Shown here piece by piece: positions 4,581-58,194 of a DNA stretch of 64,000 nucleotides. Numbering within the stretch: the first letter of the stretch is position 1; each line of letters starts with the position of its first letter. The stretch covers positions 3,456,436 to 3,520,435 of the forward strand of contig NZ_CP041352.1 in assembly GCF_009746125.1 (NCBI RefSeq), written 5' to 3'. The notes below the pieces were generated by a model. It was not told the DNA's origin. It made no database searches and saw only the letters and a program-made list of their open reading frames with translations. A program made the translations under genes and the position numbers. Source of the stretch: Casimicrobium huifangae (GTDB lineage Bacteria > Pseudomonadota > Gammaproteobacteria > Burkholderiales > Casimicrobiaceae).

Positions 4581-4710
4581 GCGGCAACAGCTCTCCCACC
4601 AATGCCTTGTTCGCAAAGGGCCCCAGGCTGATTTGCCCCTGAAGTCGACTTCCTGCCGTTCTGGCACCTGGCCCGCATCTCCCATCCACAGCGCGGAAAA
4701 AGCTGATGCG
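4581..4710. repeat. Dispersed ~125-bp palindromic repeat, copy B
   Basis: The AAGTCGACTT core is at 4642-4651, flanked symmetrically by GGGCC (4618-4622) and GGCCC (4669-4673). The right end is GGAAAAAGCTGATGCG and the left end is GGCAACAGC. It occupies the middle of the 470-bp gene-free gap 4447-4916, where nothing else is evident except the promoter region of the downstream gene. Confidence 0.75.
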
Positions 4711-4916: not shown

Positions 4917-5369
4917 ATGGCAGCCGCCAAGAAACCCGCAGCCAAGAAGCCCGCCGCGAAAAAGCCGGCAGCTAAAAAGCCCGCCGCCAAAGCAGCAGCA
5001 AAGAAACCCGCCGCGAAGAAGCCAGCAGCCAAACCGGCAGCCAAGAAGCCGGCCGCGAAAAAACCTGCTGCCAAAAAGCCCGCAGCGAAAAAGCCTGCCG
5101 CCAAGAAGCCCGCAGCCAAGCGCAAGCCGAATGCTGCCTTCATGAAGGCGATGACGCCGTCGGCAACGCTGGCCGCCATTATCGGCGCCACGCCGATGCC
5201 GCGCACCGAAGTCACCAAGAAAATCTGGGACTACATCAAGAAGAACAAGCTGCAGGACGCCCTCAACAAGCGCATGATCAATGCCGACGCCAAGCTGAAA
5301 GAGCTGTTCCAGAAGGCGCAAGTCTCGATGTTCGAAATGACCAAACTGGTCTCGAACCACCTCAAATAA
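4917..5369 (+). CDS. Histone H1-like Ala/Lys-rich protein with C-terminal SWIB/MDM2 domain
   Basis: 150 aa. Residues 1-70 are a near-perfect run of AAKKPA-type pentamer repeats, giving a very basic disordered tail like eukaryotic and bacterial H1 homologues. Residues about 78-150 form a SWIB domain, beginning LAAIIG.TPMPRTEV and containing KKIWDYIKKNKLQD, which is diagnostic for the family. Bacterial SWIB proteins (chlamydiae, many betaproteobacteria) are presumed DNA-topology or chromatin factors; the DNA-binding tail supports a nucleoid role. The start is fixed by a GGGAG site upstream. A strong terminator follows directly, so the gene is a single transcription unit. The repeat tract is tandem at DNA level (about 15-bp units), so its length may vary between strains. 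Confidence 0.9.
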   Translation: MAAAKKPAAKKPAAKKPAAKKPAAKAAAKKPAAKKPAAKPAAKKPAAKKPAAKKPAAKKPAAKKPAAKRKPNAAFMKAMTPSATLAAIIGATPMPRTEVTKKIWDYIKKNKLQDALNKRMINADAKLKELFQKAQVSMFEMTKLVSNHLK

Positions 5370-18503: not shown

Positions 18504-18629
18504 TGCAGCAACTTTTTACTCAAATGACGTTTCTATTGGGCTCGGCAGGCGAAAAGACTAAAAGTCGAGTATTCGAACTTTTATGCATTGGGCCCAGTTT
18601 GAATAAGACTTTCACTGAAAAGCTGATCC
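18504..18629. repeat. Dispersed ~125-bp palindromic repeat, copy D
   Basis: Left end TGCAGCAACTTTTT at 18504-18516 faces right end AAAAGCTGAT at 18618-18627. ATTGGGC (18535-18541) mirrors GGGCCCAG (from 18589). The core reads AAAGTCGAGT at 18561-18570. It fills the first half of the 376-bp gap between the SDR and bactofilin genes; the rest (18630-18826) is AT-richer promoter-like DNA without a clear motif. A 65-codon frame through it is not a gene. Confidence 0.8.
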
Positions 18630-34807: not shown

Positions 34808-34930
34808 CTTCAGCTTTTGTACGAAACCCGCGTCTGAATTGGGCAAACGCGGCAAATAGTCACAAAGTCGGTATTTGGTATTTTGTGGCACTTGGCCCTT
34901 ATTGAATGGGGCTTTCTGCGAAAAGCTGAT
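34808..34930. repeat. Dispersed ~125-bp palindromic repeat, copy E
   Basis: Ends TCAGCTTTT (34810-34818) and AAAAGCTGA (34921-34929) are exact inverted repeats. ATTGGGC (34838-34844) mirrors GGCCC (34894-34898), and AAAGTCGG marks the degenerate core at 34864-34871. It lies between the dehydrogenase gene and the bidirectional terminator. Confidence 0.85.
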
Positions 34931-46703: not shown

Positions 46704-46832
46704 GCATCAACTTTTTCTTCAAATCACCATTTCATTGGGCCTCAAGCGCTGAACGCCATGAAGTCGACTTTCGGCTTAATTAGCCGATTAGCTCGATTCA
46801 AACGGCACTTTTCTGAAAAAGCTACTGCTGCG
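46704..46832. repeat. Dispersed ~125-bp palindromic repeat, copy G
   Basis: Left end GCATCAACTTTTT at 46704-46716, ATTGGGC at 46734-46740, perfect core AAGTCGACTT at 46761-46770, right end TGAAAAAGCT at 46815-46823. It occupies the gap 46627-46977 upstream of gntR, together with AT-rich DNA at 46650-46690 that probably holds the gntR promoter. Confidence 0.85.
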
Positions 46833-57943: not shown

Positions 57944-58068
57944 GATCAGCTTTTTGCTGAAACACTTATTCGATATGGGCTTCAATGCCATTTGAGTCAC
58001 AAGTTGACTTTTGGCTAAATGAGGTACTGAGCCCAATTCTGTTGGGCGTTTTGCCAAAAAGTTGATGC
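57944..58068. repeat. Dispersed ~125-bp palindromic repeat, copy F (most symmetrical)
   Basis: ATCAGCTTTTT (57945-57955) and AAAAAGTTGAT (58056-58066) are the ends; ATGGGC (57975-57980) and GCCCAAT (58031-58037) lie equidistant from the core AAGTTGACTT (58001-58010). It belongs to the 416-bp gene-free gap 57823-58238, which also contains palindrome copy 4. Confidence 0.88.
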
Positions 58069-58109: not shown

Positions 58110-58194
58110 GTAGCCTCGATGCAGCACAGCGGAATCGAGGCATTATTGGCAAGCCAAGGTCACCCTCGATTCCGCGTTGCTCCATCGCGGCTAC
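58110..58194. repeat. GTAGCCTCGATGCAG palindrome, copy 4
   Basis: GTAGCCTCGATGCAGCACAG with CGGAATCGAGG on the left; CCTCGATTCCGCGTTGCTCC with ATCGCGGCTAC on the right. Downstream of the minus-strand OYE gene. Confidence 0.82.

Follow-up and report, generated by a model that had tools for sequence, protein, structure and literature searches.

The window analysed here, a 64,000-nucleotide stretch of the Casimicrobium huifangae chromosome, contains six imperfect palindromes of ~118-122 bp, one at each of the six sites (53, 4581, 18504, 34808, 46704 and 57944) where an earlier note had placed a recurring palindromic element. Copy 1 occupies positions 55-174 (profile E 3e-13), with the core AAGTCGACTT at 110-119. 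Copy 2, the least well matched of the six, spans 4586-4707 according to a position matrix, the profile itself matching over 4586-4672 (E 7e-5). Copies 3 (18507-18627; E 4e-19), 4 (34810-34930, within a convergent gene gap; E 3e-21) and 5 (46706-46826; E 5e-16) each lie in a gap whose ortholog is likewise occupied in the relative termed here G011 and, for copy 5, also in the relative G013. Copy 6, the one from which the earlier note proceeded, lies in another convergent gene gap (57945-58066; E 2e-20); the matching region of G011 yielded no counterpart of it. When the window is scanned with a profile derived from four of its own copies and from others elsewhere in the genome, exactly these six are recovered, the next-best matches having E >= 4; real sites in the surrounding 464-kb stretch score from 1e-26 to 4e-7, a wide margin over that noise.

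The internal layout may be followed along copy 6. A left end module of the CAGCTTTTTnCTGAAA type (57946-57963; high-information columns 2-17) is followed by a left arm of the CCnCATTnGAnnTGGGC type (57964-57981; columns 19-36), itself a dyad whose axis lies ~34 bp off the main centre; the main symmetry axis runs through the central palindrome ACAAGTTGACTTTT (57999-58012; columns 55-66), beyond which come the right arm GAGCCCAATTCTGTTGGGC (58029-58047; columns 85-102) and the right end module TTTTGCCAAAAAGTTGAT (58049-58066; columns 104-119). The consensus over 82 near-full copies, taken from this genome and its relatives (mainly G011 and G013), is CAGCTTTTTgcTGAAAgCCcCATTcgAaaTGGGCTcaanGCgngAATTggccaAAAGTCGACTTTtgGcaAAATtgcGCtcTaAGCCCAnTTcgAATGnGgnTTTCagCaAAAAGCTG. 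Measured from the centre, its modules are the central palindrome, an A/T tract at ~13 bp, an arm of the dyadic CCcCATT..AATGGG type with its axis at ~34 bp, and an end at ~53 bp.

These 82 copies confirm the anatomy first described: CAGCTTTTT/AAAAAGCTG ends, which constitute terminal inverted repeats of the sort found in MITEs, GGGC/GCCC arms ~27 bp off the centre, and a palindromic core. The core AAGTCGACTT stands in four of the six elements and is more degenerate in those at 18504 and 34808; allowing at most one mismatch, it occurs six times in the window (1.1 expected), four of these occurrences being inside elements. A TCGA-type centre is common to the genomes G000 (that of C. huifangae), G004, G006 and G012 and is weak in G002. 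The modules are not solitary: in G006 the arm dyad was found 16 times inside full elements and never outside them. In the 864 kb of G000 that were read, AGTCGACT, part of another relative's consensus, occurs 32 times inside elements and only twice elsewhere, where ~10 occurrences would be expected by composition (our own estimate).

Two neighbors of the element within the window deserve mention. Copy 2 lies upstream of a gene (~4917-5369) for a KPAA-repeat and SWIB-domain (histone-H1-like) protein, with the SWIB match at 5148-5363; an element also precedes a SWIB-type gene in three relatives (L223:4050-4280, L273 and L306), and this is the sole locus with conserved spacers, those of the right half being 75-83% conserved beside a very conserved upstream stretch. 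Hairpins of the GTAG-type REP class (GTAGCCTCGATGCAGC..GCGGAATCGAGG), an ordinary and separate family, occur at 58110-58194, 53239, 56296 and 20703, one inverted pair of them ~45 bp from copy 6.

Number and spacing along the chromosome

Copies extend far beyond the six in the window, and nearly every genome of the genus has the same design. There are 36 copies in the 464 kb around the window and 30 in a 400-kb region at the opposite side of the chromosome; hence the density is equal in two distant regions, and the 66 copies in 864 kb (76 per Mb) extrapolate, from ~19% of the sequence, to ~340 per 4.47-Mb genome. The claim that all copies lie between genes also holds up: by crude, home-made gene calls, just one of 98 copies has most of its length within a called gene. 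By the same calls, convergent gaps are enriched for copies (odds ratio 2.3, p 0.009), divergent gaps are not, and copies lie a median of 45 bp from the nearest stop codon.

Copies avoid one another, with a median gap of ~11 kb as measured on contiguous stretches. Placed at random between genes, the copies of the 464-kb stretch would be expected to leave 9.2 gaps under 4 kb and 8.8 gaps of 8-16 kb; there are none of the former and 22 of the latter (P < 1e-4). Over the 864 kb of this genome there are almost no gaps under 4 kb, versus ~16 expected. The minimum gap likewise indicates overdispersion (P 5e-5). The same trend appears in three other stretches, significantly in two of them and not in the third (G011b). 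This regularity is a statistical tendency (CV ~0.6-0.7) rather than a strict period. The series of copies is interrupted by a 44-kb gap (G000 3367100-3411500) that corresponds to an acquired-looking island without elements; judged from translations, the island encodes an HsdM-like protein (restriction-modification), metal-efflux RND systems, a P-type ATPase-like protein and two identical IS3-like genes.

Consensus shifts within the genus

Profile matches were obtained in 15 of 16 relatives within the genus, and the 23 genomes from other genera gave none; the genomes with matches are on record as MAGs of Burkholderiales, Betaproteobacteria or Proteobacteria. Copies are practically absent from G016 and few in its sister G008, whose genome is small; the element is therefore dispensable. 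Neither phages nor plasmids contain a match, and Rfam covariance models give none at the gathering score or at E <= 1, in agreement with the initial impression that this is not a named family; a search of open-licence PMC papers, moreover, turned up no description of a comparable long palindrome at even spacing.

In some relatives the element retains its form while its sequence has changed. Iterated profiles for G006 and G012, with hold-out halves and shuffled controls as checks, converge on a different consensus at the same density. A model-free search for symmetric motifs gives cAgCttTtt..GCCCaATTTAATTGGGC..aaTTTtTCGAaAAAtt for G006, cAgCtaTtt..tAgcCC.t.TTt.ATtGGGGCTA..tTatcgatAa for G002 (12 sites) and, with clustered repeats excluded, ACAGCTTTTt..tCGACcgccgggcGGTCGTT..AGTCGACT for G012 (7 sites). 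The elements of all three are 120 bp long with equal arm distance and occur at 74-83 sites per Mb. Copies of the G012 type fall in gaps that are occupied in G000, at 38.3, 128.8, 140.4 and 147.1 kb of the 464-kb stretch (two of them under strict mapping). In a tree based on one protein, sites of the G000 type occur in both main clades and G012, G002 and G006 form separate branches, so that the consensus shifts look derived.

De novo searches in G017 (another genus of the family), in G030 (another member of the order) and in the 72 kb of G016 found no such family, with the proviso that a weak one could be masked by background from coding frames in GC-rich DNA. G017 (L330-L337) does carry clustered GTCGGCCTGAAGGCCGAC hairpin repeats ~110-150 bp apart. 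A hairpin repeat of ~46 bp (ATAGCTGCTAGCGCTTAnnnnATAAGCGCTAGAG) lies near gene ends on the Comamonadaceae plasmids L327 and L328 and on an IncP plasmid (L329) from an uncultured bacterium, and a stretch similar to it overlaps DUF1010 genes on many enterobacterial plasmids; this Comamonadaceae repeat is real, but it is a single hairpin rather than the present element.

The GC content of the columns, read from the centre outward, is similar in four species despite their sequence differences. This property recalls strong DNA gyrase sites, which are, by analogy, the closest mechanistic counterpart of the element. The gyrase motif of E. coli is 130 bp long, symmetric about a 4-bp stagger and of alternating GC content (PMC6379681); the element likewise consists of 120 bp with alternating GC, symmetric about a central TCGA, and a further likeness is that gyrase sites are tied to transcription-generated supercoiling (PMC6379681). 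Each copy could, in principle, be such a site, with ~120 bp of DNA wrapped, the central TCGA cleaved, and the sites placed regularly downstream of genes so as to remove positive supercoils--an explanation that would accommodate both the GC blocks preserved in four species and the enrichment in convergent gaps, but that we nevertheless consider unlikely. In none of the four species does the 10.75-bp GC period characteristic of gyrase arms dominate (power 0.04-0.12); the modules are sharp sequence motifs, and those of the arms are lineage-specific, unlike the indirect readout expected of a conserved enzyme; and the element is confined to one genus, whereas gyrase is universal.

Orthologous positions, copy relatedness and folding

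Where G011 is syntenic with C. huifangae (mean protein identity 90%), most of its copies occupy gaps that hold one in C. huifangae too. In a strict set of 31 syntenic gaps, both species have a copy in three and lack one in 28, and no gap is discordant (a gap-permissive global alignment of intergenic regions is too lenient to carry weight alone). A comparison of occupied with empty orthologous sites, which the earlier note had put forward as a check, thus yields mostly concordant occupancy; the few gains and losses show no clean junctions. Between orthologous copies of this species pair (8 close pairs), high-information columns are 82% identical, versus 76% for unrelated copies, and low-information (spacer) columns are 33% identical, versus 30% for unrelated copies. 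Four-fold degenerate sites of the same two species are 64% identical (39% expected at random), so that the interior of the element seems to turn over faster than synonymous sites. Further ortholog pairs, about a dozen, from other members of the genus have spacer identities of 0.20-0.41 with flanks ~73-83% identical, a single locus being the exception, and deviations from the consensus are not significantly enriched for being shared between orthologs.

The fixed geometry and the conservation of motif columns over saturated spacers at orthologous positions point, at the level of sequence, to selection on the layout and to a protein-binding site, both of which had been raised in the earlier note. 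The same spacers might instead be taken as the mark of a DNA process of another kind--programmed cleavage, recombination or packaging--that makes them mutate unusually fast, given that orthologous spacers are no more alike than their unrelated counterparts while four-fold sites and ordinary gaps keep more. This is unlikely, however: the pairs are few, their alignment is uncertain, and no enzyme is known that would act in this way.

If the copies are protein sites, they could be operators of a global transcription regulator with a very large regulon, in keeping with dyadic modules of transcription-factor size at fixed spacing and with the one copy that stands, in conserved surroundings, upstream of the SWIB/H1-like gene. 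Operators would be expected elsewhere, however, than where the copies are: it is convergent and not divergent gaps that are enriched, no solitary modules occur at promoters, and regulon membership would not explain the even spacing. We therefore regard this explanation as distinctly unlikely.

The earlier suggestion of a REP-like element mobilised in trans fares no better. High copy number, inverted ends, intergenic positions near stop codons, restriction to one genus and the presence of Y1 transposase genes in the genome are what an old non-autonomous mobile element (a MITE, REP or REPIN) would exhibit, and its even spacing might come from target immunity or from purging of close copies. Among the 1,326 pairs formed by 52 copies, however, none shares spacers beyond column-shuffled expectation (maximum identity 0.58, versus a mean maximum of 0.55 under column shuffling; P 0.14), and therefore no copy visibly descends from another. 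In other words, each copy is one example of a long degenerate motif, and together they do not make up a repeat family as the term is ordinarily used. Nor are direct repeats of 3-9 bp overrepresented in the flanks of the 82 copies, just as the earlier note had seen no obvious target duplication. The orthologous positions held across species and the absence of copies from the 44-kb acquired metal-resistance and IS island likewise speak against mobility. As for the RAYT-like transposase that had been proposed as a partner, this genome has four weak Y1 matches, of which the two in the sequence read do not adjoin a copy, and Y1 genes are present outside the genus as well as inside it; no Y1 gene could be tied to the element.

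REPINs and GTAG-type REPs (PMC3116915, PMC3733652) resemble the element in being palindromic, intergenic, near stop codons and present in hundreds of copies. They differ from it in that the element's copies are mutually unrelated, lack hairpin covariation, are not tied to a RAYT, keep their orthologous positions and are evenly rather than randomly spaced, the random extragenic distribution typical of REPs being replaced here by overdispersion. A REPIN, moreover, features a conserved inverted REP pair with compensatory hairpin changes (PMC3116915), and such changes are absent here, there being no mirror-pair covariation. Taken together, these observations make a mobile origin improbable. In G013, two partial copies (13787 and 65144) have similar flanks and both map to 157.7 kb in G000; hence these element fragments were apparently duplicated within a larger repeat.

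The idea that the copies keep their pairing positions, which had suggested selection on a fold, does not survive a larger sample. Single copies do fold more stably than their shuffled versions (z from about -1 to -4.6), but they do so because the consensus is palindromic: over 82 copies, mirror columns pair at a frequency of 0.523, versus 0.509 expected from column composition (Z 2.0, versus 2.3 for an offset control), and there is no covariation within the arm dyads either. The absence of covariation between mirror positions implies that no hairpin is selected, and a terminator scan found none at the element. An RNA-level element (the mRNA processing hairpin of the earlier note, or a terminator) or a single-strand DNA cruciform is accordingly highly improbable despite the strong folding of single copies, since covariation is missing, the element is strand-symmetric and without an Rfam match, and its tracts (T 5' and A 3' on both strands) are in the wrong order for a terminator. 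The two halves of the element vary independently, as is expected of half-sites read by a symmetric protein and not of paired strands.

A possible architectural role

The element is best read, tentatively and at slightly less than even odds, as a lineage-specific site of symmetric nucleoprotein assembly, probably one concerned with chromosome architecture or topological domains. That it is a symmetric, selected DNA site is well supported: orthologous retention and motif conservation describe a selected, non-mobile and widely spread site, as one for chromosome architecture would be. A protein complex bound to it would be the natural counterpart of such a site. It is from spacing and placement only that we infer an architectural role, in that intervals of ~11 kb and a bias toward convergent gaps fit topological domains, which are of the order of 10 kb and whose barriers are debated (review PMC10642903).

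The mechanism that we propose is as follows. Each copy would be a ~120-bp double-stranded docking site for a predicted multi-subunit protein complex, its docking modules being the two ends (AGCTTTTT), the two arm dyads at ~34 bp, the A/T tracts at ~13 bp and, at the centre, the TCGA-type palindrome. The complex would read the half-sites directly and would require all modules at fixed distances. Some 340 such sites would be kept between genes at regular intervals of ~11 kb, preferably in convergent gaps, where their most likely role would be that of an anchor, a boundary or a topology-handling site that partitions the chromosome into units the size of topological domains. Presumably the protein or proteins that bind would co-evolve with the sites, such that in some species the consensus, mainly that of the arms, shifted in step while positions and geometry stayed.

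Among candidate binders, the gene counts of ParB, H-NS, HU/IHF and SWIB proteins do not track the element: SWIB genes occur also in genomes without it, and neither the presence nor the copy number of ParB, H-NS and HU/IHF follows it. Known chromosome-organizing sites of comparable logic are matS, parS and the Noc sites, which are motifs of ~13-20 bp restricted to a macrodomain or to origin-proximal regions. Like these, the element provides many non-mobile, selected, palindromic protein sites over the chromosome; it differs from them in being a 120-bp composite, in its presence in both sampled regions, in its regular spacing and in its rapidly changing consensus.

What parts bacterial chromosomes into topological domains of ~10 kb is still debated (review PMC10642903), and a genome with long, sequence-defined and evenly spaced sites would make this question directly testable. 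The element may mark chromosome domains in a previously undescribed way. It could even, though we put this forward with greater reserve than the architectural reading itself, represent a new chromosome-scale punctuation, in which ~340 regularly spaced composite sites of 120 bp and a fast-evolving predicted complex delimit domains of ~11 kb, the set of sites having been rewritten in place at least three times in one genus (in G012, G002 and G006). A complete change of this kind, affecting ~300 sites that stayed where they were, would amount to extreme co-evolution of a protein with its targets, for the study of which the genus offers a natural comparison: several variants of the site and, in G016, one natural loss.
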